DNA from: Modestobacter roseus
Lineage (GTDB): Bacteria; Actinomycetota; Actinomycetes; Mycobacteriales; Geodermatophilaceae
Assembly (NCBI RefSeq): GCF_007994135.1
Contig: NZ_VLKF01000001.1
Location: forward strand, 496,001-560,000
Length of the DNA stretch: 64,000 bases
Reading direction: 5' to 3'
The notes under the pieces are model-generated. The model ran no database searches. It was not told where the DNA came from and saw only the letters and a list, made by a program, of their open reading frames with translations. A program made the translations under genes and the position numbers. Shown piece after piece: positions 39,840 through 59,794 of the stretch. Each line of letters opens with the position of its first letter. Within the stretch, counting starts at the first letter, position 1.

Positions 39840-40856
39840 ATGACCGGTGTGATCTCCGAGGGGACCGGTACGACCGGGGCGGTGGAGCTGGAGCCACGCC
39901 TGGCCGAGCACCGGCGCGAGCTGACCGGGTACTGCTACCGCATGCTCGGGTCGTCCTTCGACGCCGAGGACGCGGTGCAGGAGACGATGGTCCGCGCCTG
40001 GCGTTCCCTCGACCGCCTGCAGGGCGCGGGCGCGCTGCGCTCCTGGCTGTACCGGATCGCCACCAACGTCTGCCTCGACGCCCTCGACGGGCGCAAGCGG
40101 CGGGCGCTGCCGGTCGACCTGTCCGGGGGCGAGCCGAGCGCGCCGGTGGTGGCGTCGCTGGCCGGGGTGCTGCCCGACGGGGCGTGGATCCAGCCGGCGC
40201 TGGACCGCCAGGTGCTGCCGACCGGCGCCGACCCGGCGGAGCTGGCCGTCCAGCGGGAGTCGGTGAAGCTGGCGTTCGTCGCGGCGCTGCAGCACCTGCC
40301 GCCGAAGCAGCGGGCGGTGCTGATCCTGCGCGACGTGCTCCGCTGGCGGGCCGACGAGGTCGCCGGGCTGCTGGAGACGTCGGTCGCGGCCGCCAACAGC
40401 GCGCTGCAGCGCGCGCGGGCCACCCTCGCCGCCCACCGGTCGGCGGAGGACCAGCCGGCTCCGGTGGTCGCCGCCGAGCACACCGAGCTGCTGGCCCGCT
40501 ACCTCGACGCGTTCGAGCGGTACGACGTCGAGGCGCTGGTCGCGCTGCTGCACGAGGACGCGGTGATGGACATGCCGCCGTACGCCATGTGGCTGCGTGG
40601 CTCGGCCGACATCGCCACCTGGTACACCGGCCCGGGTCACGGGTGCCGGGGATCGCACGTGGTGCCGCTGGAGATGAACGGCAACCCGGCCTTCGCCCAG
40701 TGGCGGCCCAGCGGGCCCGGTGGCTCCTTCGAGCCGTGGGCGGTGCACGCGCTGGAGTTCCGCGACGGCCTCGTCGTGCGGACGACGGCGTTCCTGGGGC
40801 CGCAGCTGTTCGAGCTGTTCGGCCTCCCGCGCAACCCGCAGCCGGCCGGCCGATGA
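39840..40856 (+). CDS. ECF sigma factor of the SigG-like type with SnoaL C-terminal domain
   Basis: A 338-residue extracytoplasmic-function sigma factor. Region 2 (about 22-85) has YCYRMLGSSFDAEDAVQETMVRAWRSLD, and region 4 (about 135-195) has LQHLPPKQRAVLILRDVLRWRADEVAGLLETSVAAANSALQRAR. The C-terminal ~125 residues form a SnoaL/NTF2-like domain (YLDAFERYDVEALVALLHEDAVMDMPP) seen in SigG-like (TIGR02960) and SigJ-like factors, where it tunes activity in place of an anti-sigma factor. No anti-sigma gene is adjacent, consistent with that. The VOC and DHFR-like genes downstream may be targets. Confidence 0.9.
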   Translation: MTGVISEGTGTTGAVELEPRLAEHRRELTGYCYRMLGSSFDAEDAVQETMVRAWRSLDRLQGAGALRSWLYRIATNVCLDALDGRKRRALPVDLSGGEPSAPVVASLAGVLPDGAWIQPALDRQVLPTGADPAELAVQRESVKLAFVAALQHLPPKQRAVLILRDVLRWRADEVAGLLETSVAAANSALQRARATLAAHRSAEDQPAPVVAAEHTELLARYLDAFERYDVEALVALLHEDAVMDMPPYAMWLRGSADIATWYTGPGHGCRGSHVVPLEMNGNPAFAQWRPSGPGGSFEPWAVHALEFRDGLVVRTTAFLGPQLFELFGLPRNPQPAGR

Positions 40857-40886
40857 GTCCGGCGACCGGGAGAGGTCTGTAGGGGC

Positions 40887-41294
40887 ATGACCGCGACCCA
40901 GGAACCGATCCCGCTGCTCGCCGCCAGCGAGGCGTTCAGCGGCTTCTCCGTCGACGACCTCGACCGTGCCCGCGCCTTCTACGAGCAGGTGCTGGGCCTG
41001 CGCACGTCGCCGACCGCGATGGCCGGGGTGATGCACCTGCACCTGGCCGGTGAGCGGCACGTGCTGGTCTACGCGAAAGGCGGTGACCACACGCCGGCCA
41101 CGTACACGGTGCTGAACTTCCCGGTCGCCGACGTCGACGCGGCGGTCGCCGAGCTCGCGGCCCGCGGGGTCGAGTTCCTGCACTACGACTCCCCGCCCAC
41201 GGACGAGAGCGGGGTCATGCGTGCCGGTGGCCCGCTCATCGCCTGGTTCACCGACCCCGCCGGCAACGTGTTCTCCGTGATCGAGCAGGGCTGA
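40887..41294 (+). CDS. VOC-family (glyoxalase-like) protein
   Basis: A 135-residue vicinal-oxygen-chelate protein. It starts FSGFSVDDLDRARAFYEQVLGL and repeats the beta-alpha-beta unit near residue 72 (FPVADVDAAVAELAARGVEF), ending FTDPAGNVFSVIEQ. The set may bind a metal, but the activity (glyoxalase, resistance or dioxygenase-like) is not determinable. Its TGA shares one base with the ATG of the next gene, so the two are coupled. Confidence 0.85.
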   Translation: MTATQEPIPLLAASEAFSGFSVDDLDRARAFYEQVLGLRTSPTAMAGVMHLHLAGERHVLVYAKGGDHTPATYTVLNFPVADVDAAVAELAARGVEFLHYDSPPTDESGVMRAGGPLIAWFTDPAGNVFSVIEQG

Positions 41295-41848
41295 TGGCCC
41301 GCCTGCTCTACGCCGTCATCTGCTCGCTGGACGGCTACACGGTCGACGCGCGGGGGAGCTTCGACTGGGCGGCACCCGATGCGGAGGTGCACGCGGCGGC
41401 CAACGACCTCGAACGGCAGGTCGGTACCGCCCTGTACGGCCGGCGCATGTACGAGACGCTCGCGGTCTGGCAGACCGTCGGCGGTCCGGACGTGTCGGCC
41501 GTCGAGAACGAGTACGCCGATGCCTGGCGGGCCACCGACAAGGTCGTCTTCTCCCGGACCCTGGCGGAGGTCGGCACGCCCCGGACCCAGCTGGAGCGGG
41601 AGTTCGACCCGGAGCTGGTCCGGCAGCTGGTCGCCGTCGCGGACCGGGACGTCAGCATCGGCGGACCGGAGCTGGCCGGCCAGGCACTCCGCGCCGGGCT
41701 GGTCGACGACCTGCACCAGTTCCTGCACCCGGTCGTCGTGGGCGGCGGCACCCGGGCGCTGCCCGACGGCGTCCGGCTCGACCTGGAGCTCGTCGCCGAG
41801 CGCCGGTTCGCCGGCGGCGTCGTGCACCTGCACCACCGCCGGCGCTGA
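41294..41848 (+). CDS. Dihydrofolate reductase-family protein (RibD C-terminal-like)
   Basis: A 184-residue protein of the RibD-C/DHFR-like superfamily. It starts ARLLYAVICSLDGYTVD and has LYGRRMYETLAVWQTVGG, the NADPH-binding DVSIGGPELAGQALRAGLVDDLHQFLHPVVVGGG and a C-terminal strand pair. These actinobacterial proteins are usually annotated as dihydrofolate reductase family but are not the folate enzyme. It overlaps the VOC gene by one base; both follow the sigma factor on the same strand. Confidence 0.87.
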   Translation: MARLLYAVICSLDGYTVDARGSFDWAAPDAEVHAAANDLERQVGTALYGRRMYETLAVWQTVGGPDVSAVENEYADAWRATDKVVFSRTLAEVGTPRTQLEREFDPELVRQLVAVADRDVSIGGPELAGQALRAGLVDDLHQFLHPVVVGGGTRALPDGVRLDLELVAERRFAGGVVHLHHRRR

Positions 41849-41877
41849 ACCCCGCCGCGGGACGGCTCGAGCCGGCC

Positions 41878-42489: not shown

Positions 42490-42498
42490 GACACACCT

Positions 42499-42521
42499 CT
42501 TAGGGAACGTTGCGTTTCTTA
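42499..42521. promoter_or_regulatory. Operator-like site 1 for the divergent TetR regulator
   Basis: On the minus strand this site reads TAAGAAACGCAACGTTCC plus flanking bases. It shares the pattern TAAGAWACGCWMCGTYYC with a second copy exactly 40 bases away and contains the partial dyad AACGTTGCGTT. It lies 10 bases before the TetR start codon, a position suited to autoregulation. Confidence 0.55.
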
Positions 42522-42538
42522 TGGCCGGGACCTACGGT

Positions 42539-42561
42539 GAGAAGAGACGGAGCGTATCTTA
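42539..42561. promoter_or_regulatory. Operator-like site 2 for the divergent TetR regulator
   Basis: The second copy of the TAAGAWACGCWMCGTYYC pattern, in the same orientation as site 1. It ends 15 bases before the membrane-protein ATG and just upstream of its TGGAGGTC ribosome-binding site, so a bound repressor would block that gene. Confidence 0.55.
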
Positions 42562-42576
42562 AATCTGGAGGTCATC

Positions 42577-43602: not shown

Positions 43603-43681
43603 CGTCCGGCGGCCCGGTCGACGCGCGGGATGCCGGCGCCTCGCCGGGACGTGCGGACAGCCGTGCGAGCTCCCGGCCACG

Positions 43682-43735
43682 TGGAGCGGGTGACCGGGAT
43701 CGAACCGGCATGGCCAGCTTGGAAGGCTGGGGCTC
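43682..43735 (-). pseudogene. 3' fragment of a tRNA-Gly(TCC) gene (probable attachment-site scar)
   Basis: On the minus strand the sequence gives the end of the D-arm (GAGC), the anticodon arm CCAGC-CTTCCAA-GCTGG with anticodon TCC, the T-arm GCCGG-TTCGATC-CCGGT, the 3' acceptor strand CACCCGC, discriminator T and an encoded CCA. The 5' acceptor strand and most of the D-arm are absent; upstream sequence (CAGTGGGGATGA) does not pair. A cleanly truncated tRNA 3' end like this is the usual remnant left by integration of a mobile element into a tRNA gene. Confidence 0.85.
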
Positions 43736-43929
43736 TTCATCCCCACTGTGGCTGGTCTGTGGAGAGTCAACCGAATGTCGTGCCTTCCACGTGCCTCAGC
43801 GCTGGTCCGAAGACCGGGGCGCTTCCTCGGGCCGGTCGGCGGCCCTGCCGGGCGGGCGGCTCGCGAAGGGCGTACTGCCCACCCCTGCGGACACCGGACG
43901 CTTCGGTCTGCCATGACCCCGTCCGCGGT

Positions 43930-44100
43930 GATCGGACCCTCGCTGAGGACGCGCTCGCCGGCGCCTTCGAGGAAGGACTGCGTCGCTGGCCGGAGCCCGG
44001 CGTGCCCGAGAAGCCCGAGGGCTGGTTGCCCACCGCGGCCAGGAATCGGCAACTCGACGTCTGGAAGTCCGCGGCGTGGACGGCGGCACCGCTCGAGGAA
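43930..44100 (+). pseudogene. Fragment of an ECF sigma-factor gene
   Basis: One frame reads LAEDALAGAFEEGLRRWPEP, then GVPEKPEGWLPTAARNRQLD and VWK. This matches region 2 of SigJ/YlaC-like ECF factors (pattern LAEDAVQEAFxxALxRWPxxGVPxNPxAWLxTxARxRAID). The rest of region 2, region 4 and the start are missing, so this is debris. It lies just inside the tRNA-Gly scar and merges into the convergent 6-phosphogluconate dehydrogenase end. The remaining ~350 bases of this gap hold no recognisable gene. Confidence 0.6.
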
Positions 44101-44149: not shown

Positions 44150-45601
44150 TCAATCGCCGACCGGTACCTCGCTGCGGTCACCGGACCACAGGACGTGGAA
44201 GGCGCCCGCGCTGTCGATGCGTCGGTAGGTGTGCGCACCGAAGAAATCGCGCTGCCCCTGGATCAGCGCAGCCGGTAGCCGCTCGGATGCGAGCGAGTCG
44301 AAGTAGGCCAGCGCGGAGGAGAAGCCGGGCGCCGGCACCCCGGACAACGCTGCGGTGGCAACGACCCGGCGCCATGCCTGCGCGCCTCGAGTGACTGCGT
44401 CGGCGAAGTAGTCGTCGGCCAGCAGGGTCGCCAGCTGCGGGTCCCGGGCGTAGGCCTCGACGATCCGGTCGAGGAACCGGGCGCGGATGATGCAGCCGCC
44501 GCGCCAGATCCTGGCCACCGCGCCCAGGTCGATGTCCCACCCGTACTCGCGGGCGCCAGCGACGATCAGGTCGAACCCCTGCGCGTAGGCGACCACCTTG
44601 GAGGCGTAGAGCGCGGCCCGTACGTCGTCCTCAAAACCGTCGTAGGACGGCTGCACCTCCGGCCGCTCCGACATCGCCGTCTGGACGGCGGCTCGCTGTG
44701 CCGGCCTGCTGGACACCGCGCGGGCGAAGACCGCCTCGCCGATGCCCGAGACCGGCACCCCGAGGCCAAGGGCGTTCTGCACGGTCCACACGCCGGTGCC
44801 CTTGGACCCGGCCTGGTCGACGACCACGTCGACCAGCGGTCCACCAGTACGGGCGTCGGTCTGCCGGAGCACCTCCGCGGTGATCTGTATCAGGTAGGAC
44901 TCCAGGTCGCCGGCGTTCCAGGTGGCGAACACGTCCGCGATCGCTGGCACGTCGTGCCCGCCCACCCGGCGTAGGAGGTCGTAGGACTCCGCGATCAGCT
45001 GCATGTCGGCGTACTCGATGCCGTTGTGCACCATCTTCACGAAGTGGCCGGCGCCGTCGGTGCCCACGTGGGTGACGCACGGCTCGCCCTCGGCGACCGC
45101 GGCGATCGACGCCAGGATCGGCCCGAGCGTCGCGTAGGCCTCCGGGGAGCCACCGGGCATGATCGACGGGCCGTGCAGCGCGCCCTCCTCGCCGCCGGAG
45201 ATGCCCGCGCCCACGAAGTCCAGGCCGCGTTCGCGTACCGCGCGCTCGCGGCGGATCGTGTCGTGGAAGTCGGCGTTGCCGCCGTCGACGATGATGTCGC
45301 CCGGCTCGAACCGCTCGGCCAGCTGTTCGATGACCGAATCGGTGCCCCGGCCAGCCTGCACCATGATGATCGCCGTCCGCGGCCGGGCCAGCGACGCCAC
45401 GAAGTCGTCGATCGACTCCGACGGCACCAATCCCGCGTCAGGGTGCTCCGCGACCAGGGCTCGGGTGCGCCCTGGCGAGCGGTTGTAGACCGCGACGGTG
45501 TTGCCCGGTCGGCTGGCGAGATTGCGGGCCAGGTTCGAGCCCATGACGGCCATGCCCACCACGCCGATGTTCGCTCGGCCCGGCTCGGTCGCCCTGGTCA
45601 T
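44150..45601 (-). CDS. gndA: 6-phosphogluconate dehydrogenase, decarboxylating (NADP type)
   Basis: A 483-residue long-form 6PGDH. It has the NADP loop GVVGMAVMGSNLARNLA with NRSPGRTRAL after strand 2 (Arg favouring NADP), the substrate motif VGAGISGGEEGALHGPSIMPGG, the catalytic Lys in GHFVKMVHNGIEYADMQLI, and the C-terminal dimer tail HTYRRIDSAGAFHVLWSG. It converts 6-phosphogluconate to ribulose 5-phosphate and CO2. It is the first intact gene inside the tRNA-Gly scar, and the genome very probably carries another gnd elsewhere. ATG at 45601. Confidence 0.93.
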   Translation of the reverse strand: MTRATEPGRANIGVVGMAVMGSNLARNLASRPGNTVAVYNRSPGRTRALVAEHPDAGLVPSESIDDFVASLARPRTAIIMVQAGRGTDSVIEQLAERFEPGDIIVDGGNADFHDTIRRERAVRERGLDFVGAGISGGEEGALHGPSIMPGGSPEAYATLGPILASIAAVAEGEPCVTHVGTDGAGHFVKMVHNGIEYADMQLIAESYDLLRRVGGHDVPAIADVFATWNAGDLESYLIQITAEVLRQTDARTGGPLVDVVVDQAGSKGTGVWTVQNALGLGVPVSGIGEAVFARAVSSRPAQRAAVQTAMSERPEVQPSYDGFEDDVRAALYASKVVAYAQGFDLIVAGAREYGWDIDLGAVARIWRGGCIIRARFLDRIVEAYARDPQLATLLADDYFADAVTRGAQAWRRVVATAALSGVPAPGFSSALAYFDSLASERLPAALIQGQRDFFGAHTYRRIDSAGAFHVLWSGDRSEVPVGD

Positions 45602-45985: not shown

Positions 45986-46996
45986 GTGGCTGGAACGACG
46001 GTTGTCACGGCCGGCAGCTCGGTCGAGACGTGGTTGGCGCACCCGGAAGGCGGCCCGCTGCTGAGGCAGCTGCTGGCCCAGGGTGGGATGGACGAGGAGC
46101 GGCTGGCACCGGTCCGTGGCTTCTCGCTCCTGCAGCTGGCGGAACTGAGCCAGGGCGCCCTCCCGCGTGAGGTCGTGGACGACCTGGTGCGCAGGGCGAA
46201 CGGCGGCTCGGTCCCCGTGGGGGATGAGGAGGTCATCGGCTGGCAGGAGCGGATCGTGCCCAGCCGCTTCGAGGGGCGGACGGTCATCGTGACCGGGGCG
46301 GCATCGGGCATCGGACGCGCGACCGCTTCACGGATCGCCCGCGAGGGCGGGCGTGTCGTCGCGGTCGATCTCTCGGGCGATGCCCTTGGTCAGTTCGCCG
46401 CCGAGCAGGGGGAGGCGGTCACCGCGGTGGTCGGTGACATCACCCAGATCGGAGACGTCGAGCGCATCGTCGCCACCGCCGGCGCCCAGATCGACGGCCT
46501 GGCCAACGTGGCCGGCGTCGCTGATGACTTCACCCCGGTGCACGAGGTCTCGGACGCCGTGTGGCAGCGGTGCTTCCGGGTCAACGTCGACGGCACTTTC
46601 CAGCTGACGCGCGCCGTCCTGCCGGCGATGCTGTCCGCCGGGCGGGGGGCCATCGTCAACGTCGCATCGGAGGCGGCTCTCCGCGGCTCTGCAGCGGGTG
46701 CCGCCTACACCGCGTCCAAGCACGCGGTCATCGGTCTCACTCGCAGCGCCGCCTTCATGTACGGGCCCCAGGGCATCCGCGTGAATGCGGTCGCGCCCGG
46801 CGGTGTGGCCACCGGGATGCGACCCACCGCTGCCTCCGAGTTCGGGCAGCAGCGCGTCGGGCCGCTCATGGCGCTCATCCCACCGGTGGCGACCGCCGAC
46901 CAGCTCGCCGCGTCGATCACGTTCCTGCTCAGCGATGACGGGGTCAACGTCAACGGTGCGGTGCTGCCCTCGGACGGCGGTTGGTCGGTGCAGTGA
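45986..46996 (+). CDS. SDR-family oxidoreductase with an extra N-terminal helical domain
   Basis: 336 residues. Residues about 95-336 are a classical SDR: TGAASGIG (103-110), acidic VAVDLS after strand 2 (NAD preference likely), catalytic Ser228, Tyr241 and Lys245 (YTASK), and the C-terminal GAVLPSDGGWSVQ. Residues 1-90 are an added helical domain (ETWLAHPEGGPLLRQLLAQG, FSLLQLAELSQGALPREVVDDLV) that looks like the helical tail of some actinobacterial GH3 glycosidases. A role in sugar or polyol oxidation would fit the surrounding genes. GTG start preceded by GAGGGGAC. Confidence 0.85.
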   Translation: MAGTTVVTAGSSVETWLAHPEGGPLLRQLLAQGGMDEERLAPVRGFSLLQLAELSQGALPREVVDDLVRRANGGSVPVGDEEVIGWQERIVPSRFEGRTVIVTGAASGIGRATASRIAREGGRVVAVDLSGDALGQFAAEQGEAVTAVVGDITQIGDVERIVATAGAQIDGLANVAGVADDFTPVHEVSDAVWQRCFRVNVDGTFQLTRAVLPAMLSAGRGAIVNVASEAALRGSAAGAAYTASKHAVIGLTRSAAFMYGPQGIRVNAVAPGGVATGMRPTAASEFGQQRVGPLMALIPPVATADQLAASITFLLSDDGVNVNGAVLPSDGGWSVQ

Positions 46997-47850: not shown

Positions 47851-47859
47851 GGGTCGACG

Positions 47860-48559: not shown

Positions 48560-50125
48560 GTGCGGACTCGTACAACCGGCTCACGGCGCACCGGGCGCCG
48601 CCTCACGGCGGCGTTCGGGGTGGCCGCCGTCCTCACCACCGCCGCCTGCGGCGGCGACTCGGACTCGTCCGGCAGTGGTGGCAGCCAGTCGGGCGACGCG
48701 TCCCTGGCGCTCGCCATCAACGCCCAGCCAGCGACCCTGGACCCGGCGCAGCTGGCAGAAGGCCAGCAGGCCTACCTCTGGACCTCCATCTACGACACCC
48801 TGCTCACCCTCGACAACGAGGGGCAGTTGCAGCCCAACGCTGCCGAGAGCTGGGAGTACTCGGCGGACGGGCGCACCCTCACCCTGAAGCTGCGGGACGG
48901 GATGACCTTCAGCTCCGGCGACCCGGTGACCGCCGAGGCGGTGCGGGCGACGCTGGAGCGCACCCGCACCACACCCGGGCAGCAGCAGGGGAAGCTCGCG
49001 GCAGTCGAGTCCGTCGAGGCCCCCGACGACAGCACCGTCGTGCTGAACCTCAGCGAGCCGGACAGCTCGCTGCTCGTCAACCTCGCCCAGGCGGCCGGCG
49101 TGATCGGTGACCCGGCGACCATCGAGAACGAGGACAGCGTGCTCGACCCGGTCGGGTCCGGCCCCTACGTCCTCGACGACGAGGCCACCGTTCCCGGCAG
49201 CACGTACGTCCTCGAGCGCCGGGACGACCACTGGAACGTCGACGCCTACCCGTTCGAGACGGTGACGGTCCGGGTGATCCAGGACCGCACAGCCGTCTTC
49301 AACGCGCTGCAGACCGGTGAGTTGAACGCCGGCACGGTCGAGGCGCCGCAGGGCGAGCAGCTGGCGAGCCAGGGCTTCGACATCGCGAAGGTCGACGCCA
49401 CCGCCGTCGGCAACCTGGTGCTCGCCGACCGGAGCGGCACCGTCCAGCCGGCATTCGCCGACCCCAGGGTTCGGCAGGCCATCAACATGGCCTTCGACCG
49501 GGAGAAGATCGTCGAGCAGTTGCTCCAGGGCAACGGTCTGGCGACGCAGCAGATCTTCAACCCGAAGGGGGAGGCGTACGTCGAGGAGCTCAACGACACG
49601 TACGAGTACGACCCCGAGGGGGCCAAGGCGCTGCTCGCCGAGGCCGGGTACGCAAACGGGTTCGAGATCACGATGCCCAGCACCATCATCTCGCAGAACT
49701 TCGAGCCGACCATCACCCAGGCGCTGGCCGACATCGGGATCCGGGTGACCTGGGAGCCCGTGCCGCCGCAGAACACGGCATCGGCGGTCGCGTCGGGGAC
49801 CTACCCGGCGGTGTTCTTCATCGACGGGCTCAACGCCGCCCCGCGCGAGCTGGCGAACAACTTCGCTCCCGACGGTTTCCTCAACCCGTTCGACAGTGAA
49901 CTGCCCGCCGAGCTCACCGAGCTGATGGACCAGATCGCGACCGAGACCGACCCGACCGCGGCCGGTGACCTGCTCCAGCAGGCGAACGAGGTGATCGTGG
50001 AGAACGCCCTGACGGCGCCGCTGTTCTACGCCGGCACCACCTGGGCCACCACCGACGGGATCGAGTACCTCGGGGACGGCTCGAACACCCTCAACACGGT
50101 GCGCGCCTTCGGCGTCTCGGCCTAG
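48560..50125 (+). CDS. Family-5 extracellular solute-binding lipoprotein of an ABC importer
   Basis: 521 residues. The signal peptide (RRTGRRLTAAFGVAAVLTTAAC) ends in a lipobox with Cys30, followed by a Ser/Gly linker. The mature protein is an SBP_bac_5 domain: PATLDPAQ, YDTLLTLDNEGQLQPNAAESWE, LKLRDGMTFSSGDPVTAEAVRATLE, DPRVRQAINMAFDREKIVEQLL and YDPEGAKALLAEAGY. Family-5 proteins bind peptides, nickel or oligosaccharides; the glycosidase genes nearby favour a beta-linked oligosaccharide. GTG start at 48560 with GAAGGAGTGA upstream. Confidence 0.9.
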   Translation: MRTRTTGSRRTGRRLTAAFGVAAVLTTAACGGDSDSSGSGGSQSGDASLALAINAQPATLDPAQLAEGQQAYLWTSIYDTLLTLDNEGQLQPNAAESWEYSADGRTLTLKLRDGMTFSSGDPVTAEAVRATLERTRTTPGQQQGKLAAVESVEAPDDSTVVLNLSEPDSSLLVNLAQAAGVIGDPATIENEDSVLDPVGSGPYVLDDEATVPGSTYVLERRDDHWNVDAYPFETVTVRVIQDRTAVFNALQTGELNAGTVEAPQGEQLASQGFDIAKVDATAVGNLVLADRSGTVQPAFADPRVRQAINMAFDREKIVEQLLQGNGLATQQIFNPKGEAYVEELNDTYEYDPEGAKALLAEAGYANGFEITMPSTIISQNFEPTITQALADIGIRVTWEPVPPQNTASAVASGTYPAVFFIDGLNAAPRELANNFAPDGFLNPFDSELPAELTELMDQIATETDPTAAGDLLQQANEVIVENALTAPLFYAGTTWATTDGIEYLGDGSNTLNTVRAFGVSA

Positions 50126-50133
50126 TCCTGCTC

Positions 50134-50168
50134 GCCCCGGGCGGCGGTCGGCGACCGCCGCCCGGGGC
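50134..50168 (+). terminator. Hairpin between binding-protein and permease genes (attenuator)
   Basis: A perfect 16-bp stem (arm GCCCCGGGCGGCGGTC) with a 3-base GGC loop. It lies 9 bases after the binding-protein stop and inside the operon. It probably stabilises the upstream message or partially terminates it, giving more binding protein than permease. Confidence 0.65.
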
Positions 50169-50201
50169 CTGTCCCCGTCCGAATCAGCGGAAAGACCACA
50201 C

Positions 50202-51143
50202 ATGACCCTCTACGTGGTGCGGCGACTGGCCACCGGCCTGGTGCTCGCCCTCCTGGTGACGCTGATCACCTTCCTGTTGCTCAGTCCCTCCTTCGACGGT
50301 GTGGTCCGCAGCATCCTGGGCAGCGCAGCCACCCCCGAGTCCGTGGCCGCGCTCAAGGAGCGGTTCGGCCTGGACCGGCCGCTCCTGGTGCAGTACGGGG
50401 ACTGGCTGGGCGGCGTGCTGCAGGGTGACTTCGGGCGGTCGTACTTCACCAGCCAGGAGGTGGCCCCGGCCGTGGCGTCGCGGCTCAGCGTGACGCTGTC
50501 GGTGGTCCTGGTGGCCCTGGCGGTCACCGTCCTGATCAGCGTCACCCTCGGGGTCCTCGCCGCTTGGCGGGGGGGCGGGGTCGACCGGGCGGCGCAGGGT
50601 GTCTCGCTCGTGGGGTACCTGATCCCGAACCTGCTGATCGCGATCGTGCTCGTGTACGTGTTCGCCATCCAGCTGGGCTGGCTGCCGGCCACGGGGTACA
50701 CCCCGCTGTCGGAGAACCCCGGTCGCTGGGCGACCTCCATCCTGATCCCGGTGATCGCGTTGGTCATCGCGGGAATCGCCAACATGGCGGCACAGGTGCG
50801 CGGGTCGATGATCGACGAGCTGCGCAAGGACTACGTCCGGACCCTTCGCACGCGTGGCATCAGCACCCGCTCGGTGGTGCTCCGGCACGCGCTGCGCAAC
50901 GCCGCGGGGCCTGCGCTGACCGTCATGTCGCTCGAGTTCATCTCGATGCTCGGGGGCGCGCTCATCATCGAGAACGTCTTCGCGCTCCCCGGGTTCGGCA
51001 GCTACGCCTTCAACTCGTCCCTGCAGGGAGACATCCCGGTCATCATGGGCATCACCTTGTTCACCGTCCTGCTGGTGGTCTGCGTCAACTTGGTCACCGA
51101 CCTGGTCAACGGCTGGCTCAACCCGAAGGCGAGGGTCCTGTGA
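50202..51143 (+). CDS. ABC importer permease (DppB/OppB type)
   Basis: A 313-residue permease with six membrane helices: an N-terminal helix RLATGLVLALLVTLITFLLL, the family extracytoplasmic loop (LKERFGLDRPLLVQYGDWLGGVLQGDFGRSYFTSQEVAP), and the coupling-helix EAA motif DYVRTLRTRGISTRSVVLRHALRNA. It forms the transport path with the permease half of the next gene. Its TGA overlaps the GTG of that gene by four bases, so translation is coupled. Confidence 0.92.
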   Translation: MTLYVVRRLATGLVLALLVTLITFLLLSPSFDGVVRSILGSAATPESVAALKERFGLDRPLLVQYGDWLGGVLQGDFGRSYFTSQEVAPAVASRLSVTLSVVLVALAVTVLISVTLGVLAAWRGGGVDRAAQGVSLVGYLIPNLLIAIVLVYVFAIQLGWLPATGYTPLSENPGRWATSILIPVIALVIAGIANMAAQVRGSMIDELRKDYVRTLRTRGISTRSVVLRHALRNAAGPALTVMSLEFISMLGGALIIENVFALPGFGSYAFNSSLQGDIPVIMGITLFTVLLVVCVNLVTDLVNGWLNPKARVL

Positions 51144-52972
51144 CCGTCAACGCGGAGACCTTCGCGACCGACGCAGGAGAGGCCGAGCAGGCCGGCCCGC
51201 CACGGCGGTCGCCGTGGCGCAAGCTGCTGCGCGACCCGCAGGCGGTCATCACCGCGACCATCCTGGTCACCTTCGTGGTGCTCGGTGTGCTGGCAGACGT
51301 GATCGCGACGCACGGCCCGAACGAGGCGTCGCTCGACGCGTACAACGCTCCCCCCGGTACGCCCGGCTTCCCCCTGGGCGGCGACCAGAGCGGCCGCGAC
51401 ATCCTGGCGAGGCTGCTGCACTCGATCAACACCAGCGTGGTCTCCGCCCTCATCGGTACGTCGGTGGCGCTCGTCATCGGCGTCACCGCGGGGCTGGTCG
51501 GCGGCTACTTCGGCCGCCGAACGCGCGGGGTCACCGAGTGGCTGTTCAGCCTGATCATGACGTTCCCGGGGCTGCTCCTGCTCATCGTGCTGCTGCCGGT
51601 GACCAAGGGCGACTTCCGGGCGACCATGTTGATCTTCGGAGTCCTACTCTCGCCGAGTGTGTACCGGATCGTCCGCAACCTGGTGCTCGGCGTGAAGAAC
51701 GAGTTGTACGTGGACGCCGCCCGGGTGTCGGGCCTGAACACCAAGCGGATCCTCGCCCGGCACGTGCTGGTGGTGGTGCGCGGGCCGATCATCATCGCCG
51801 CCGCCTTCATGGCGGGGACGTCGATCACCCTGCAGTCGGGCCTCGCGTTCCTCGGCGTGGGTTCGACGTCGGTCCCCAGCTTCGGTGCCATGGTGGCGGA
51901 GGGCTTCCGCAACCTCTACGTCGAGCCCATGCACTTCGTCTGGCCCAGCCTGGCCCTCGGGCTCATGACGGCCTCGCTGGTGCTCCTCGGCAACGCACTA
52001 CGGGACGCTCTCGAAGGGGTGCGTCGGAAGCCGGCGAAGCTCGAGACGGGAACCGATCGGGCGGGTGCTGCCACGGCGCCGGCCGACGGTGCAGCTCCCT
52101 TGCCGGTCCCGGGTGCCGACGCGGACGGCTCCTCGTCGCTACTGGTGGTCGAGGACCTCGCCATCGCCTACCCAGCACCCGACGGCAGTTTCCGCGAGGT
52201 GGTCCACGGAGTCTCCCTGCACCTGGAGGCCGGGGAGACCCTCGGTCTGGTGGGCGAGTCCGGGTCGGGCAAGACCCAGACGGCATTCGCGGCCCTGGGC
52301 GTGCTGCCGGCGGAGGCCGTCGTCACCCGCGGGTCCATCCGGCTCGAGGGGCGGGAACTGCTGGGCCTGAGCGAGCGGGAGCTGCGCGGGATCCGTGGCA
52401 GCGCCATCGCCTACGTGCCGCAGGAGCCGATGTCGAACTTGAACCCGTCGTTCACCATCGGCGCCCAGCTCGTGGAGGGTCTGCGGGCGTCGACCCAGCT
52501 CTCCCGGAGCGCGGCCCGTGAACGCGCCCTCGCACTGCTGGGGCGGGTCGGCATCCCGGACCCGCAGCGGACCTTCGACTCCTACCCGCACCAGATCTCC
52601 GGCGGGATGGCGCAGCGGGTGCTCATCGCTGGCGCAGTGGCCAGCCGGCCCAAGGTCCTGATCGCGGACGAGCCGACGACGGCCCTGGACGTCACCGTGC
52701 AGGCCGAGATCCTCGACCTGCTGCGGGAACTCCAGCAGGAGCTCGGCATGGCCGTGCTGCTGGTGACGCACAACTTCGGCGTGGTCGCCGACATCTGCGA
52801 CCGCATCGCCGTGATGCAGACGGGACGCGTGGTCGAGGCCGGCGAGACCCGCGAGGTGTTCCGCAACCCGCAGCACCCGTACACCCGGATGCTGCTCAAC
52901 TCCATCCTCGACGAGACCACCGTGCGGCAGGACGGCCCGTCGGCCGGCGTGCCGCTGACGACGGAGGCGTGA
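51140..52972 (+). CDS. Fused ABC importer permease-ATPase (DppC-DppD type)
   Basis: A 610-residue fusion. Residues about 25-295 are a DppC-type permease (LLRDPQAVITATILVTFVVLG, GGDQSGRDILARLLHS, EAA motif ELYVDAARVSGLNTKRILARHVL). After a Pro/Ala/Gly linker (about 296-333), residues 334-610 are an ABC ATPase: Walker A GESGSGKT (372-379), signature SYPHQISGGMAQRV, Walker B VLIADEPTTALD and the oligopeptide-transporter C-terminal motif NPQHPYTRMLL. The fusion fixes permease and ATPase at 1:1. The GTG at 51140 overlaps the upstream stop. Confidence 0.92.
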   Translation: MTVNAETFATDAGEAEQAGPPRRSPWRKLLRDPQAVITATILVTFVVLGVLADVIATHGPNEASLDAYNAPPGTPGFPLGGDQSGRDILARLLHSINTSVVSALIGTSVALVIGVTAGLVGGYFGRRTRGVTEWLFSLIMTFPGLLLLIVLLPVTKGDFRATMLIFGVLLSPSVYRIVRNLVLGVKNELYVDAARVSGLNTKRILARHVLVVVRGPIIIAAAFMAGTSITLQSGLAFLGVGSTSVPSFGAMVAEGFRNLYVEPMHFVWPSLALGLMTASLVLLGNALRDALEGVRRKPAKLETGTDRAGAATAPADGAAPLPVPGADADGSSSLLVVEDLAIAYPAPDGSFREVVHGVSLHLEAGETLGLVGESGSGKTQTAFAALGVLPAEAVVTRGSIRLEGRELLGLSERELRGIRGSAIAYVPQEPMSNLNPSFTIGAQLVEGLRASTQLSRSAARERALALLGRVGIPDPQRTFDSYPHQISGGMAQRVLIAGAVASRPKVLIADEPTTALDVTVQAEILDLLRELQQELGMAVLLVTHNFGVVADICDRIAVMQTGRVVEAGETREVFRNPQHPYTRMLLNSILDETTVRQDGPSAGVPLTTEA

Positions 52973-53820
52973 TGACCGCACCACTGCTCGACGTCCAGGA
53001 CCTCCGAGTCGCGTTCCCCGGACGCGGCTTCCGCAGCAAACCGATCGAGGTCTTGCACGGCGTCTCCCTCGACATCGCCGCTGGCGAGACGCTGGGTGTC
53101 GTGGGGGAGTCCGGTTCCGGCAAGACCACGATCGGCAGGGCAGTGCTCGGGCTCGTCAAGCCCAGCGGCGGGCGGATCACCTTCGACGGCCAGGACGTCA
53201 CGCACGCCGCGCCCAAGGACCGACGGGGGAGTGCGCAGGACATCCAGGTGGTGTTCCAGGACCCCTACACGTCACTCAACCCGTCGATGCAGATCGGCGA
53301 CATCCTCAGCGAGCCGTTGGTCGTGCGGGGGGCGAGCCAGCGCGATGCGCGAGCCCGGGTGCGGACGCTGCTGGATCAGGTGGGGTTGCCGGCGAACGCC
53401 GCCGAGCGGCTGCCGCGTGAGTTCAGCGGTGGTCAGCGTCAGCGTGTGGCCATCGCCCGGGCCCTGGCGCCGGAGCCCAGGCTGATCGTCTGCGACGAGC
53501 CGGTCTCGGCGCTCGACCTCAGCACGCAGGCGAAGGTCCTGGACCTGTTCATCGAGATCCAGCGCAGCACCGGAGTGGCCTACCTGTTCGTCTCGCACGA
53601 CCTCGCGGTGGTGCGGCACATCAGCCACCGGGTGAGCGTCGTCTACCGGGGAGACATCGTCGAGACCGGGTCGGCCGACGCGGTGACGTCCACGCCGGAG
53701 AACCCGTACACGCAGCGCCTGCTGCTGGCCGCGCCGGTCGCGGACCCCGCGGAGCAGGAGCGCAGGCGAGCCCAGCGACGGCAGCTGGAGGCCGCGGCGA
53801 GCGGCTCCACCGCCGCCTGA
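52972..53820 (+). CDS. ABC importer ATP-binding protein (DppF/OppF type)
   Basis: A 282-residue ATPase. It has Walker A GESGSGKTT, the Q-loop region QVVFQDPYTSLNPSMQIGD, signature LPREFSGGQRQRVAIARAL, Walker B RLIVCDEPVSALD, the H-loop LFVSHDLAVV and the C-terminal NPYTQRLLLAAPVADP. It completes the importer as the second nucleotide-binding subunit beside the ATPase half of the fused protein. The ATG at 52972 shares one base with the upstream stop codon. Confidence 0.92.
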   Translation: MTAPLLDVQDLRVAFPGRGFRSKPIEVLHGVSLDIAAGETLGVVGESGSGKTTIGRAVLGLVKPSGGRITFDGQDVTHAAPKDRRGSAQDIQVVFQDPYTSLNPSMQIGDILSEPLVVRGASQRDARARVRTLLDQVGLPANAAERLPREFSGGQRQRVAIARALAPEPRLIVCDEPVSALDLSTQAKVLDLFIEIQRSTGVAYLFVSHDLAVVRHISHRVSVVYRGDIVETGSADAVTSTPENPYTQRLLLAAPVADPAEQERRRAQRRQLEAAASGSTAA

Positions 53821-53836: not shown

Positions 53837-53879
53837 CGAGCCCGCTGACTCACGCGCTCAGGCGAGGTGGGCGGGCTCG
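53837..53879. terminator. Inverted repeat at the end of the importer operon
   Basis: CGAGCCCGC at 53837-53845 pairs with GCGGGCTCG at 53871-53879 across a 25-base loop. It lies in the gap between the convergent ATPase and Gfo/Idh/MocA genes and enters the latter's 3' end. The loop is long, so termination is likely but not certain. Confidence 0.4.
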
Positions 53880-54844
53880 CGTGGTGACATGCCGGCGGCT
53901 CGGTAGATGGCGTCGATGGTGCGCATCGTGGCGGTGGCCTGCAGGGGGCCGGTGAGCAGGCCGCCGCCGTGCACCACCGCGTCGCGGAAGGCCGCCAACT
54001 GGAAGCTGTACGTCGTCCGCGCGTCTCCCTGCTCGGTGACGGTGCCCGCCGGCGTGACCAGGGTCAGCAGTCCGTGGAAGTGCGGGTGGTACGGCATGCG
54101 GACGGTCAGCCGGCCGGCCGTCCCGGTCATCAGCAGCTCGGCAGCCCCCCTCTCCTCCGGATGCATGCTGGCCCGCACCCGGCCCGCCGCGCCGCGGCCG
54201 AACAGCAGGTCGGCGGTCATGGAGGCGTCAACGCCGCCGACCTCGTCGGCGTCGGCCCGCACCACATCAGGCACACCCAACAGGTCGAGCAGCAGGCGTA
54301 CCGGGTAGCAGCCGAGGTCCATGAGCGCTCCGCCACCGAGTGCCGCGTCCCACCGGATGTCGGTGCGGTCCGCATGCGGCACCACGAAGGTGGCCGTCGC
54401 GTCGAGGACCTCACCGAGGGACCCCGACGACACCAGGTCGGTCACCCGTGACCACATCGGGTGGTGGACCGAGTGGAACGCCTCCATCACCACCAGGTCG
54501 CTCCCCAGCGCCAGTTCGGCGATCATCTCGGCCTCGTCCGCGTTGGCGGTGAACGGCTTCTCGCAGAGCACGTGCTTGCCGGCGTCGATCGCGCGGCGGA
54601 TCCAGCGCCCGTGCATCGCCGCAGGCGTCGGGATGTAGATCGCGTCGACGTCCGGGTCGTCGACCACGGCGTCGTAGTCGGCGAGCGCGCGGGGGATGCC
54701 GTGCTGGGCCGCGTAACGGGCCGCCCGTTCGGCCGACCGGGCGGCGATGGCGGTCACCACCACGCCGTCCACCTCGGCTGCCGGCCGCAGAAGCGCGGAC
54801 TCCACGATCCGGGCCGCCCCGAGGACGCCGATGCGCACGGTCAC
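53858..54844 (-). CDS. Gfo/Idh/MocA-family oxidoreductase
   Basis: A 328-residue NAD(P)-dependent dehydrogenase. The N-terminal Rossmann domain begins RIGVLGAARIVESAL; IYIPTPAAMHGRWIRRAIDAGKHVLCEKPF holds the family catalytic Lys in EKP. The C-terminal alpha/beta domain follows (GGALMDLGCYPVRLLLDLLG, HSVHHPMWSRV). Members oxidise sugars, inositols or sugar acids. The start (GTG 54844) overlaps the stop of the upstream TetR gene by four bases, so the pair is translationally coupled. Confidence 0.9.
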   Translation of the reverse strand: MTVRIGVLGAARIVESALLRPAAEVDGVVVTAIAARSAERAARYAAQHGIPRALADYDAVVDDPDVDAIYIPTPAAMHGRWIRRAIDAGKHVLCEKPFTANADEAEMIAELALGSDLVVMEAFHSVHHPMWSRVTDLVSSGSLGEVLDATATFVVPHADRTDIRWDAALGGGALMDLGCYPVRLLLDLLGVPDVVRADADEVGGVDASMTADLLFGRGAAGRVRASMHPEERGAAELLMTGTAGRLTVRMPYHPHFHGLLTLVTPAGTVTEQGDARTTYSFQLAAFRDAVVHGGGLLTGPLQATATMRTIDAIYRAAGMSPREPAHLA

Positions 54845-55461
54845 CGGGCCAGCCCGGGGAGGTAGGTGAGCAGGAACTGCCGCATCGACGCGGCCATGCG
54901 GACGTGCTCCCGGTCGAACAGCCACTGGGCCTGCAGTCCGTTCATCAACGCCACCGTCATCACGGCCAGCGTCTCCGGGTCTGCTCCTGCCGCGAGCTCG
55001 CCCCGCTCCGCGAGGGCGGTGAACGCCTGGGCGTAGAAGTGGCGAAGCGCCCGGTACTGCTCGGCGTAGTGGGTGTGCGCGGGGTGGTCCGGCGACGTCG
55101 CCTCGCCCGCCAGCACGCAGTGCAGGGCGAGCAGGCCGGGCAGGTGCTCGTTCTCGGCGACGACACCGAGCATGCCTCGCAGGGCCTCGAGTGGCTGTGT
55201 GCGCGGGTCCAGCGCCTGAGCCGACCGGAGGTACTCGGTGCTGAGCTCCGCCCGCAGTGCCAGCACGGCAGTGAGCAGCTCCTCCTTGCTCGCGAAGTGG
55301 TGCAGGAGGCCGGTGTAACTGATCCCCGCGCGTCGCGCGACGTCCTTCATCGTGGCGCCGTAGAACCCGGTCTCGCCGAATGCCTCCACGCAGGCCTCGA
55401 CGATGCGCCGCCGGACCCCCTCCGTCTTCGCGTACGGGCCCCGTGGTGCGGTCGCCGGCAT
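54841..55461 (-). CDS. TetR-family regulator of the glycosidase locus
   Basis: A 206-residue regulator. The helix-turn-helix (about 13-58) reads IVEACVEAFGETGFYGATMKDVARRAGISYTGLLHHFASKEELL. A TetR_C-type ligand domain follows (ALHCVLAGEATSPDHPAHTHYAEQYRALRHFYAQAF). It is divergent from the GH3 gene; the shared gap contains one of two near-identical promoter segments, the other preceding the GH1 gene. I infer that it controls both, releasing them when a sugar ligand binds. Confidence 0.88.
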   Translation of the reverse strand: MPATAPRGPYAKTEGVRRRIVEACVEAFGETGFYGATMKDVARRAGISYTGLLHHFASKEELLTAVLALRAELSTEYLRSAQALDPRTQPLEALRGMLGVVAENEHLPGLLALHCVLAGEATSPDHPAHTHYAEQYRALRHFYAQAFTALAERGELAAGADPETLAVMTVALMNGLQAQWLFDREHVRMAASMRQFLLTYLPGLAR

Positions 55462-55659: not shown

Positions 55660-58092
55660 ATGGACCACAAGGACACTGCCCGGTCGCCTGAGGAACGCGC
55701 TCGCGACCTGCTCGGACGGATGACCGTCAGTGAGAAGGCCCAGCAGCTCGTGGGCGTGCTGCCGCATGCGCTGGCCGGTGCCGGCGGAGTCTCCGGAGAC
55801 GCCCTGCGGCGGCACCTGGCCGACGGGATCGGGCACATCTCCGGCGCGGCCCTCACGTCCGATTCGCCGGTGGCGATCGCGCGCGTCAACAACGCCGTCC
55901 AGCGTCACCTCGTGGAGGACACTCGCTTGGGCATCCCCGCCATCCTGCACAACGAGGCCCTCAACGGTGTGTCGGCCAAGGGCTTCACCGTCTTCCCCAC
56001 GAGCATCGGCCTCGCCGCCACCTGGAACCCGGTGCTGGTCGGCGAGATGGCCGCCCTCATCCGCCGCCAGCTGCGCGCTGTCGGCATCAGGCAGGCCCTG
56101 TCCCCGGTGCTGGACGTCGCCCGCGATGCCCGTTGGGGACGGGTACACGAGACCTACGGCGAGGAGGTCGCCCTGGTCACCGCGATGGGTGTCTCCTTCG
56201 TCGGCAACATGCAAGGTGAGGACCTCCGGGACGGCGTCATCGCCACGGCCAAGCACTTCCTCGGCTACGCGATGACCGAGGCCGGGCAGAACCTGGCGGC
56301 GACCCACTTCGGCCCGCGCGAGCTGTACGACGTCTACGCCACCCCGTTCGAGGCGGCCATCCGGCTGACCGGCATGCGCAGCGTCATGAACAGCTACTCC
56401 GAGATCGACGGCGAGCCCGTGGCGACCTCGGCGGCCGTGCTGGATGACCTGTTGCGGGGGCGCCTGGGCTTCCAAGGGACCGTGGTCTCCGACTACCGGA
56501 CCGTCCAGTACCTGGTCGAGCGCCAGCTGGTGGCGAGCTCTCCGGAAGAGGCCGCCGGGCTCGCCCTCGCTGCAGGTCTGGACGTCGAGCTCCCCAGCGC
56601 CTACGGCTACGGAGCCACGCTGGCGCGCGCAGTCGAGGCGGGGGAGATCGACGAGGCCCTCCTCGACCGCGCAGTGCTCCGCGTGCTCGTGCACAAGTTC
56701 GAGCTCGGTCTGTTCGAGGCCCCCTACGTCGCCGAGGACGCCGTGCTGCTCGACGGCCTGGGGCGCGAGGGCGTCGACCTCTCTGCCACGCTGGCCGAGC
56801 AGTCGGTGACGCTGCTGAAGAACGACGGCGGCGTGCTCCCCTTCGACCCGGCCGTGCGCCGGGTCGCGGTCATCGGGCCGCACGCCGAGTCTGCACTGGT
56901 CAACTTCCCCAACTACACCTATCCGGCCAGCCAGGAGATGCTGCGCGGGCTGGCCACCGGGCAGGCCCAGATGGTCGGCATGGAGGGCGTCCTCGGGGAG
57001 ATGTCCGAGGAGAAGCGGAAGGTCGCGGTCGCGCGTCTGGAGGCCATGTCCAAGATCGACGTCGAGCAGATCGTGCGCGACGACTACGGGGCCGTCGGGT
57101 TGGCCGAGGCGGTACAGGCAGTCCTGCCCGACGCCCAGGTCTCCTCCGTCGTGGGCGTCGGCCTCATCGACCCCGAGCCGAGCGATCTGGACGCGGCCCT
57201 GGCGGCGGCGGCGGACGCCGACGTCGTCGTGCTCGCCCTGGGCGGGCGTTCCGGCGCCTTCGCCGGGCGGATGACGGAGGGGGAGGGGACAGACTCCGCG
57301 GACATCGACCTGCCTGCCGGTCAGGTCACGCTCGCTCGTGCGGTCGCCCAGCTGGGCAAGCCGACGGCAGCAGTCCTCTTCATGGGTCGCCCGTACGGCA
57401 TCGCCGCCGTCGACGAAGTGGTGCCGGGCATCGTCACCGCCTACTTCCCGGGCTCGGAGGGGCCGGTCGCGCTGGCCCGCGTCCTCTTCGGGCTCTCGAC
57501 GCCGGGCGGGAAGCTGCCCTTCACCATGCCGCGGCACTCCGGCCAGGTCCCGATCTACCAGGCGCACAAGCGGGGCAGCGGAGACCGCCGCGAGCCGGCC
57601 GACATGTGGAAGGGGTACCGGGACATGCCCATGACGCCGCTGTTCCCCTTTGGTCACGGCCTCACGTACACGACCTTCGAGTACGGGGATGTCAGCAGCG
57701 AGGCGGCCGAGGTGACTCCGGAGGGCGAGGCCGTGCTCCGCGTCCCCGTCCGGAACACCGGGTCGAGGGCGGGGGCGGAGGTGGTGCAGTTCTACGCGAG
57801 CCAGCCGGTCCGCGGCATGACCCGCCCGGTGCAGCAGCTCGTTGGCTTCGCCCGGGTGGACCTGGAGCCCGGCCAGGAGGCCGAGGTCGAAGTCGTGTTG
57901 CCGGTGGACCAGCTCGGCTTCACCGGTGTCGACGGTCGGTTCGTCGTCGCGCCGGGCGAGGTGACCGTGCACGTCGGCTCCTCGTCGGTCGACCTCCGGA
58001 CCTCCAGTTCGTTCGCCATCACCGGCGACCGGCCGCAGCTCGTCGGTCGGCGGACGTACCTCCCGCGTGTCTCGGTCCGCCGGCCGGGATGA
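55660..58092 (+). CDS. Glycoside hydrolase family 3 (beta-glucosidase/beta-xylosidase type)
   Basis: An 810-residue cytoplasmic enzyme. The barrel domain carries the nucleophile Asp278 in VVSDYRTVQYL and the substrate-binding TAKHFLGYAM. The (alpha/beta)6 sandwich begins near ALAEQSVTLLKNDGGVLPF. A C-terminal fibronectin-III-like domain includes FGHGLTYTTFEYGD and VQFYASQPV. The SDY motif and the VELPSAYGYG segment resemble the xylosidase/glucosidase branch with broad exo-activity. No signal peptide, so it acts on imported oligosaccharides. The ATG at 55660 starts the family N-terminus. Confidence 0.92.
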   Translation: MDHKDTARSPEERARDLLGRMTVSEKAQQLVGVLPHALAGAGGVSGDALRRHLADGIGHISGAALTSDSPVAIARVNNAVQRHLVEDTRLGIPAILHNEALNGVSAKGFTVFPTSIGLAATWNPVLVGEMAALIRRQLRAVGIRQALSPVLDVARDARWGRVHETYGEEVALVTAMGVSFVGNMQGEDLRDGVIATAKHFLGYAMTEAGQNLAATHFGPRELYDVYATPFEAAIRLTGMRSVMNSYSEIDGEPVATSAAVLDDLLRGRLGFQGTVVSDYRTVQYLVERQLVASSPEEAAGLALAAGLDVELPSAYGYGATLARAVEAGEIDEALLDRAVLRVLVHKFELGLFEAPYVAEDAVLLDGLGREGVDLSATLAEQSVTLLKNDGGVLPFDPAVRRVAVIGPHAESALVNFPNYTYPASQEMLRGLATGQAQMVGMEGVLGEMSEEKRKVAVARLEAMSKIDVEQIVRDDYGAVGLAEAVQAVLPDAQVSSVVGVGLIDPEPSDLDAALAAAADADVVVLALGGRSGAFAGRMTEGEGTDSADIDLPAGQVTLARAVAQLGKPTAAVLFMGRPYGIAAVDEVVPGIVTAYFPGSEGPVALARVLFGLSTPGGKLPFTMPRHSGQVPIYQAHKRGSGDRREPADMWKGYRDMPMTPLFPFGHGLTYTTFEYGDVSSEAAEVTPEGEAVLRVPVRNTGSRAGAEVVQFYASQPVRGMTRPVQQLVGFARVDLEPGQEAEVEVVLPVDQLGFTGVDGRFVVAPGEVTVHVGSSSVDLRTSSSFAITGDRPQLVGRRTYLPRVSVRRPG

Positions 58093-58102
58093 CCCCCTCG
58101 GT

Positions 58103-58130
58103 CGGGGAGGCGGGATCGCCCGCCTCCCCG
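58103..58130 (+). terminator. Hairpin terminator after the GH3 gene
   Basis: A perfect 12-bp stem (CGGGGAGGCGGG) with loop ATCG, 10 bases after the GH3 stop. It should end or attenuate the GH3 transcript before the GH43 gene. Confidence 0.7.
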
Positions 58131-58240
58131 GCTGACTTCGAGCCACGGCCGGTCACGGCCCCGTGGTAGCCGCACACCCACCGGACGGGGCCGGCGCGGT
58201 CCGCCCGTCCGGCTCGCCCGCGAGCGGAGGAGACCGCCCG

Positions 58241-59701: not shown

Positions 59702-59706
59702 AAATA

Positions 59707-59739
59707 GTGTTGTAGTACGGGATTGATGCTAGTGTGACG
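59707..59739 (+). promoter_or_regulatory. Promoter/operator copy B upstream of the GH1 gene
   Basis: GTGTTG, 17 bases, then TAGTGT. It lies 6 bases after the GH43 stop and about 55 bases before the GH1 ATG, and matches copy A (55479-55511) at 25 of 33 positions. This implies that GH1 and GH2 form a separate transcript under the same control as GH3. Confidence 0.6.
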
Positions 59740-59794
59740 CCAACCACGACAGCTGCGATGCCGCCGTCCTCCGTCCTCGTCGAAGGGCCATGAC

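Follow-up and report, generated by a model that had tools for sequence, protein, structure and literature searches.

What does a tRNA gene that has lost its 5' end mark on the chromosome of Modestobacter roseus? The window, by which we mean the whole stretch of 64,000 nt analysed (C1:496001-560000 of the two-contig genome, G000), contains such a gene. The sequence-only reading took it as a truncated tRNA-Gly(TCC) at the left edge of an integrated element, which should extend to higher coordinates and end at an intact minus-strand tRNA-Gly(TCC) sharing the same bases. Positions beyond the window are given here as extended coordinates (C1 minus 496000).

The tRNA-Gly(TCC) fragment and its intact partner

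Read on the minus strand, window positions 43736-43682 constitute the 3' part of tRNA-Gly(TCC), comprising the anticodon arm, the T-arm, the 3' acceptor strand and an encoded CCA. The features that define the two ends are as follows.

39840..41848, plus strand: left chromosomal flank, with sigma factor, glyoxalase and RibD_C genes (Pfam), found beside tRNA-Gly in G007, G011 and G020 (sigma factor alone in G005)
43682..43736, minus strand: displaced 3' fragment of tRNA-Gly(TCC), 55 nt, left attachment-site core (55/55 identity to the intact gene, exact boundaries)
43752..43807, plus strand: left arm, CTGGTC (43752, 43802) and CGTGCCTTCCACGTGCC (43779-43795), with a 16-mer common to other insertions
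Extended 106407-106541, beyond the window: right arm, adjoining the intact tRNA (alignment and motif search)
Extended 106542-106615 (G000:C1:602542-602615), beyond the window, minus strand: intact tRNA-Gly(TCC) (ARAGORN and sequence comparison)

Only one other exact copy of the 55-nt fragment exists in the genome, at C1:602542-602596. It lies inside the intact tRNA-Gly(TCC), precisely the kind of gene that had been proposed to be sought beyond 64 kb and to close the element. The two copies are identical at 55/55 positions and in the same orientation, with identity ending abruptly on either side, and they are 62,860 bp apart, giving an island of 62,915 bp with both repeats included. The truncated tRNA is thus real, and such identity rules out chance; an exact partner, the lack of which had been named as telling against an island, is present. 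Two details of the earlier description need correction. The att repeat is shared, direct and exact, but 55 nt long instead of about 54; the 5' part is indeed absent, but it amounts to the first 19 of 74 nt rather than to half of the gene.

Neither ARAGORN nor Rfam (gathering threshold) called the fragment in the window, as expected because the gene is truncated; the sole tRNA found there by ARAGORN, in agreement with Rfam, was tRNA-Arg(TCT) at 10401-10475. No gene predicted by our own gene caller overlaps the fragment. Moreover, the fragment and the intact tRNA reside on the same replicon, on the correct side and in the correct orientation, at a length within 2-200 kb. Inside the island, no match to the tRNA longer than 14 nt was found.

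Flanks, empty sites and other insertions

The fragment is preceded on its left by sigma factor, glyoxalase, RibD_C, TetR and ABC-2-type membrane genes; the Pfam match of the last one falls below threshold. The intact minus-strand tRNA-Gly(TCC) is followed by a plus-strand tRNA-Pro(TGG), trigger factor, two clpP genes and clpX. We compared this arrangement with same-genus relatives, represented by one genome per species. The comparison with relatives lacking the region, as the sequence-only reading had suggested, revealed that the two flanks adjoin in four of them: the left-flank match ends 93 bp from the intact tRNA-Gly in G005 (measured from the sigma factor, the sole flank gene there), 744 bp in G011, 1002 bp in G020 and 1258 bp in G007 (measured from RibD_C), as opposed to 64.7 kb in G000. 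The same distance amounts to about 5 kb in G014 and G018, 6 kb in G010, 18-21 kb in G001, G004 and G009, 60 kb in G017 and 129 kb in G008. The tRNA-Gly(TCC) gene is thus an integration hotspot, at which G000 carries a 63-kb insert. The same genes at the same place without any tRNA, the other arrangement named as speaking against an island, were not seen; among the matches listed, those to the cargo lie elsewhere in the relatives.

Displaced tRNA-Gly fragments of 45-51 nt on the matching side occur in at least five of the 22 same-genus relatives, a lower bound given that the site was fetched in 15 of them. Their identity is 96% in G003, 94% in G015 and 100% in G006, G008 and G017. The fragment and the intact tRNA are on different contigs in G003 and G006, leaving these islands unclosed. 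G001, G004, G014 and G018 possess the right arm and no clear displaced fragment in the fetched sequence (one 26-nt match in G004). In G008 (C1:1559628-1561952; L080:7129-9453), the displaced fragment and left arm are followed, at a distance of 2.3 kb, by a right-arm-like stretch that has a second core of 32 nt and looks like the remnant of another tandem element.

Between RibD_C and the fragment, window positions 41878-43681 carry the TetR and ABC-2-type membrane genes. As relatives cease to be strongly similar in DNA at 41845-41866, this 1.8-kb segment may have been inserted separately, outside the repeats. The GC content is 0.752 at the left edge, 0.717 in the island (0.722 in the cargo and 0.662 in the tRNA-proximal restriction module) and 0.706 in the right flank. 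As the right flank is as low in GC as the island, base composition marks the left edge only.

Attachment arms at both ends

Inward of the displaced fragment, the 16-mer GTGCCTTCCACGTGCC (window 43780-43795) is common to G008 and G017 and differs by one base in Klenkia terrae and in the second copy of Blastococcus aggregatus. At the other end, the right arm contains CCGTGCCTTAA together with its exact inverse, the two being separated by 46 nt. About 140 bp left of the intact tRNA could be aligned in 12 sequences picked for having the arm (G000, six relatives and five named loci), with a mean column identity of 83%, tRNA columns included. Among the 15 same-genus relatives fetched, six have the right arm beside the intact tRNA (G001, G004, G008, G014, G017, G018), and it is absent from the other nine (G003, G005, G006, G007, G009, G010, G011, G015, G020), which include all four empty sites. 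CGTGCCT, a motif picked post hoc after the comparison, occurs nine times in 114 kb, with five copies within the two 200-bp island ends, where 0.014 would be expected. Both ends keep CGTGCCT repeats common to related elements, and we predict that the left- and right-arm sequences are arm-type sites of an integrase.

An island without an integrase gene

The expectation that an integrase gene would be located in or near the island failed, as none was found. Phage_integrase (PF00589) matches in G000 are limited to C1:1208938 and C1:2508014, both outside the island and of Xer type: one is XerD (over the TIGR02225 cut-off) and the other XerC-like (best with TIGR02224, below cut-off). A search of the genome for resolvase families, with PF07508 set aside, returned one 84-aa fragment at C1:2557468, also outside the island. 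Similarly, tblastn with the integrases of four relatives detected no remnant in the island (best E 0.15). According to Pfam, the 41 island genes from our own gene caller include no integrase, relaxase, FtsK-type, replication or phage structural family; one is an IS110 transposase and three are without any Pfam match (g68, g76, g83).

Relatives do carry an integrase gene, situated about 0.2 kb inward of the fragment in G003 and G006, 3 kb inward in G017 and mid-island in G008; that of G003 is an incomplete 234-aa open frame without a start. The integrases of G008 and G017 are 85% identical, those of G003 and G006 71%, and identity between the two groups is 37-46%. The different integrase subfamily in G003 and G006, together with the inexact fragments of G003 and G015, indicates that more than one element type uses the tRNA-Gly gene. 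From its gene content, we file the G000 element as a putatively immobilised island, not an active one.

A Type ISP restriction-modification gene at the tRNA end

Beside the intact tRNA-Gly lies a gene for a 1600-aa protein (extended 101431-106233), a Type ISP enzyme by domain architecture, with predicted activity. PF13156, PF04851, PF22240 and PF18135 scored over cut-off, and Eco57I and N6_Mtase were weak matches below cut-off. A single chain thus combines an Mrr nuclease, an SF2 helicase, a coupler, an N6 methyltransferase and an ISP specificity domain. The PADLOC label 'Type IIG/Type I restriction-methyltransferase' was set aside in favour of the Pfam and PDB matches. A tRNA-like stretch left of this gene (about L005:7160-7210), first taken as a second tRNA scar, drew no ARAGORN call and was dropped.

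A scan for Type ISP genes confirmed 127 relatives, of which 80 were kept; ten of these belong to Geodermatophilaceae (Blastococcus, Klenkia). An intact tRNA-Gly follows the gene in K. terrae, TF02A-26 and B. aggregatus, and a truncated core in DSM 46786 and the second copy of B. aggregatus. TML/M2B has the arm and a 44-nt core 1.4 kb away, and the KM273128 locus is cut by a contig end. The loci of B. massiliensis, B. saxobsidens and K. taihuensis have neither tRNA-Gly core nor arm. Altogether, the arm is present at the gene in eight of 12 loci (the ten above, G000 and G008), not all of which are independent, as K. terrae and the second copy of B. aggregatus are 99.4% identical and TF02A-26 and TML/M2B 96.3%. 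ARAGORN detected no tRNA-Gly at 18 further actinobacterial loci of the 80, with the other 52 left aside.

Eight of nine Type ISP proteins were compared over their recognition region, leaving out L175 with its 580 aa before a stop; an early stop also ends the frame of L107, after 1379 aa. Residues 1100-1345 are 33-64% identical in 27 of the 28 pairs, far less alike than residues 1-1099 (84-94%), which points to a recognition region that is replaced or fast-diverging. The 28th pair (TF02A-26 and TML/M2B) is 99% identical in both regions.

An integrase-bearing relative in Klenkia and Blastococcus

The Type ISP scan also led to K. terrae IHUMI-26.3 (L101, L193, L194), where the ISP gene, the right arm and the intact tRNA-Gly and tRNA-Pro are found at C4, about 648.9-660.0 kb. 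From the right end at C4:648.97 kb, the island spans about 107 kb to a displaced 47-nt tRNA core, followed by the left arm at 755.87 kb. It contains an integrase gene (697.0-697.6 kb), the product of which is 88.7% identical over 379 aa to that of G008 and 88.9% over 352 aa to that of G017. A diverged core (49 nt, 88%) at 702.5 kb, between the ends and 5 kb from the integrase, suggests that the K. terrae island may be two stacked elements.

B. aggregatus DSM 4725 (L175) is 99.4% identical to the K. terrae right end over 11,128 bp. There, the right arm, the 47-nt core and the left arm follow one another and match both K. terrae ends, which means that the two ends are joined through the core. 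The same diverged core lies 55 kb past the joined core, and the integrase 5 kb further (9458 bp at 99.9% to K. terrae). Two ends separated by 107 kb in K. terrae are therefore joined in B. aggregatus, an arrangement that a circular or tandem form would produce. A near-identical element (99.4-99.9% over the 11.1 and 9.5 kb compared; L175, L195, L196) is accordingly present in two genera, tRNA-Gly-integrated in one and with joined ends in the other. The 99.4% identity across genera could also stem from a mix-up of material.

Sugar and sugar-acid cargo

The part of the island within the window comprises the following features.

43927..44082, plus strand: sigma factor region-2 remnant inside the left end, tentatively a pseudogene (Sigma70_r2, E 0.00038, 20.6 bits, cut-off 24)
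44150..45601, minus strand: gnd, 6-phosphogluconate dehydrogenase, first called cargo gene (PF00393/PF03446; TIGR00873 over cut-off)
45986..46996, plus strand: short-chain dehydrogenase (PF00106/PF13561)
48620..53820, plus strand: Opp/Dpp-type ABC importer with SBP_bac_5, permeases and ATPases (PF00496, PF00528, PF00005)
53858..55461, minus strand: GFO/IDH/MocA oxidoreductase and TetR regulator (Pfam)
55660..64000, plus strand: GH3, GH43, GH1 and first GH2 glycosidase genes (Pfam); the island continues past the window end to extended 106596

The sugar importer, glycosidases, second gnd and pseudogenes listed from the sequence alone were broadly right: the importer is Opp-type, the glycosidases are GH3, GH43, GH1 and GH2, and a weak sigma-factor remnant is present. 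The gnd gene is indeed a second one, as another gnd-like stretch with 75% DNA identity lies at C1:423597-425011. The whole cargo (44.2-98.5 kb) encompasses gnd, the importer, two GH3, GH43, GH1, two GH2, an MFS transporter, an FGGY kinase, a mannitol-dehydrogenase family protein, glucuronate isomerase, a LarA-family protein, LarE, LarB, LarC, regulators, MMPL, a chemotaxis receptor and others. LarE, LarB and LarC all scored over cut-off (LarA-family and Lar genes at extended 71735-73024, 83925-84737, 86092-86772 and 87600-88808). The LarA-family protein, encoded beside uronate genes, has as best NCBIfam match a nickel-dependent putative hexonate epimerase, at 160 bits, far under the cut-off of 500; these genes are candidates for a sugar-acid epimerase with its cofactor genes. 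A stretch of 1.6 kb (window 46997-48619) is without a called gene, and Pfam on one frame of 47100-48400 gave no match.

This cargo is largely collinear with G005 C15:474770-523556 with 71-91% DNA identity in the individual segments; gnd occupies another position in the opposite orientation, and about 45.6-48.6, 55.4-61.1, 84.8-86.9 and 87.5-89.0 kb are without a match. The counterpart in G001 is split over contigs C4 and C3. The gnd gene, inverted at the left end in G000, is flanked in G001 and G005 by the counterparts of the LarA/GH3 and TetR genes, a position occupied in G000 by the IS110 transposase (extended 76628-77707).

The block is downstream of tRNA-Pro(GGG) in both G001 and G005. An att-bounded island at this site is not supported, no tRNA-Pro(GGG) repeat longer than 13 nt having been found to bound the cargo in G005 (C15:444000-536000) or G001 (C4 from 44000). 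The tRNA-Pro(GGG) genes are positioned at G001:C4:52605, G005:C15:530878 and G000:C1:1229572, and the match between G000 and G005 ends about 55 bp past the 3' end. Integrase matches within about 0.6 kb of the corresponding tRNA-Pro were observed in G004, G007, G008 and G017, with short partial ones in G014 and G018, among 13 genomes whose tRNA-Pro anticodons were left unchecked. Thus, tRNA-Pro(GGG) looks like a second integration hotspot. A sugar-isomerase-like island gene (extended 84726-86006) has a copy near tRNA-Pro(GGG) in the same genome (C1:1222029-1223310), and their 97% DNA identity suggests a recent duplication or conversion.

Discussion

The best explanation of the whole is a 62.9-kb genomic island, reaching from window 43682 to extended 106596, that arose by site-specific recombination into tRNA-Gly(TCC), a reading to which we assign a probability of about 0.92. 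It is based on the exact 55-bp direct repeat in the right configuration, the empty sites and the arms shared at both ends, as well as on the K. terrae island, which shares the right end, has a left arm of like kind and carries an integrase gene, and whose ends are joined in B. aggregatus. Integration into tRNA-Gly(TCC) is established as far as sequence comparison can establish it. The incoming attachment site would have carried the 3' part of tRNA-Gly; thereby, the tRNA gene would have been regenerated at the right end, next to trigger factor and clpX, and the host's own 3' part pushed to the left end in the window. The recombinase was presumably a tyrosine integrase like those of K. terrae, G008 and G017, which would have acted on the CGTGCC(T) arm sites. 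The integrase gene would since have been lost, leaving the island stranded and mobile only with an integrase supplied in trans. On its best reading, the G000 island is an immobilised member of a tRNA-Gly-targeted element family.

Whether all 62.9 kb arrived in a single event is open to doubt, because the relatives of the cargo differ from those of the tRNA-proximal restriction gene. The island is probably a composite of a recurrent element end (Type ISP gene, right arm and tRNA core) and the sugar and sugar-acid block. An element with the restriction gene and the attachment site could have come first and the sugar block have entered it afterwards, through homologous recombination, transposition or a traceless second integration. 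We consider the odds of such accretion to be even, and it does not conflict with integration itself. The ISP end is found again with different content: at the threshold used, the islands of G008 and G017 have no other called cargo gene in common with that of G000, and the ISP gene is present in G008. The collinearity of the cargo with G005, the difference in GC between cargo (0.722) and ISP module (0.662), the IS110 transposase and the diverged core inside the K. terrae island, as in stacked elements, point the same way. The matching arms at both island ends and internal tRNA matches of at most 14 nt speak against accretion.

It is very improbable that a chromosomal rearrangement brought the block here from a place next to tRNA-Pro(GGG) in the same genome, with the tRNA fragment as an older scar of other origin. 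The location of the block downstream of tRNA-Pro(GGG) in G001 and G005 and the 97% identical copy of one island gene at C1:1222029 would be in keeping with it; however, the tRNA-Gly flanks adjoin in the empty-site relatives, and the insert runs exactly from one repeat to the other and carries matching arms at each end. The reading of the fragment as a partnerless tRNA duplicate, accidental or decayed, which only the absence of an integrase favours, is refuted by the 55/55 identity, exact ends, orientation and empty sites.

Beyond integration into tRNA-Gly(TCC) in G000, we tentatively propose, at somewhat less than even odds, that Blastococcus, Klenkia and relatives host a tRNA-Gly(TCC)-specific element family. 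Its fixed tRNA-proximal module would consist of a Type ISP restriction gene with an exchangeable recognition region and the attachment arm, the rest being exchangeable cargo that also uses tRNA-Pro(GGG); integrase-less members would be stranded and mobilisable in trans by the integrases of relatives. The K. terrae/B. aggregatus result raised the odds of this idea slightly. In two named genera, both of which harbour a near-identical element, a restriction-modification gene with a variable recognition region is tied to a single tRNA attachment site, and the comparison suggests a route by which uronate and plant-polysaccharide catabolism could be exchanged among these bacteria. Furthermore, a displaced tRNA fragment noticed in raw sequence was enough by itself to pinpoint the opposite end of a 63-kb island, 43 kb beyond the window.

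Actinomycete integrative and conjugative elements use tRNA genes as integration sites. According to PMC11706625, these elements encode an integrase, RepSA and an FtsK/SpoIIIE-type transfer protein; the G000 island has an actinomycete host and site-specific integration in common with them, whereas none of the three was found among its 41 called genes. Islander (PMC4383910) maps tRNA- and tmRNA-targeted islands of 2-200 kb by the regenerated tRNA gene and the displaced 3' fragment and applies an integrase filter. The G000 island has its ends marked likewise, on the correct side, in the correct orientation, within that length and with a shared stretch including the anticodon arm. However, it lacks the integrase gene that the Islander definition requires and would fail the filter. 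Islands of this kind are dropped there, and arms common to integrase-bearing relatives offer a way to recover them. Titles and abstract openings of the literature on Blastococcus islands, Geodermatophilaceae tRNA and integrases, and actinobacterial tRNA-Gly islands did not describe the G000 island.

The Type ISP protein matches LlaBIII (4xqk) over residues 17-1597 and LlaGI (5ffj) over residues 155-1597; unlike these enzymes, its gene is chromosomal and lies at the end of a tRNA-targeted island, and its activity is predicted. Within the genus, the insertions of G008 and G017 have the same core and arms, and the Type ISP gene of G008 is placed likewise (82% aa identity), but they carry integrase genes and other cargo, and the 124-kb G008 island has an extra partial core. 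The elements of K. terrae IHUMI-26.3 and B. aggregatus DSM 4725, with cargo compared in part, differ from that of G000 in possessing an integrase and, in K. terrae, in a length of about 107 kb with a diverged core inside, and share with it the Type ISP gene, the right arm, the tRNA core and a left arm of the same kind.
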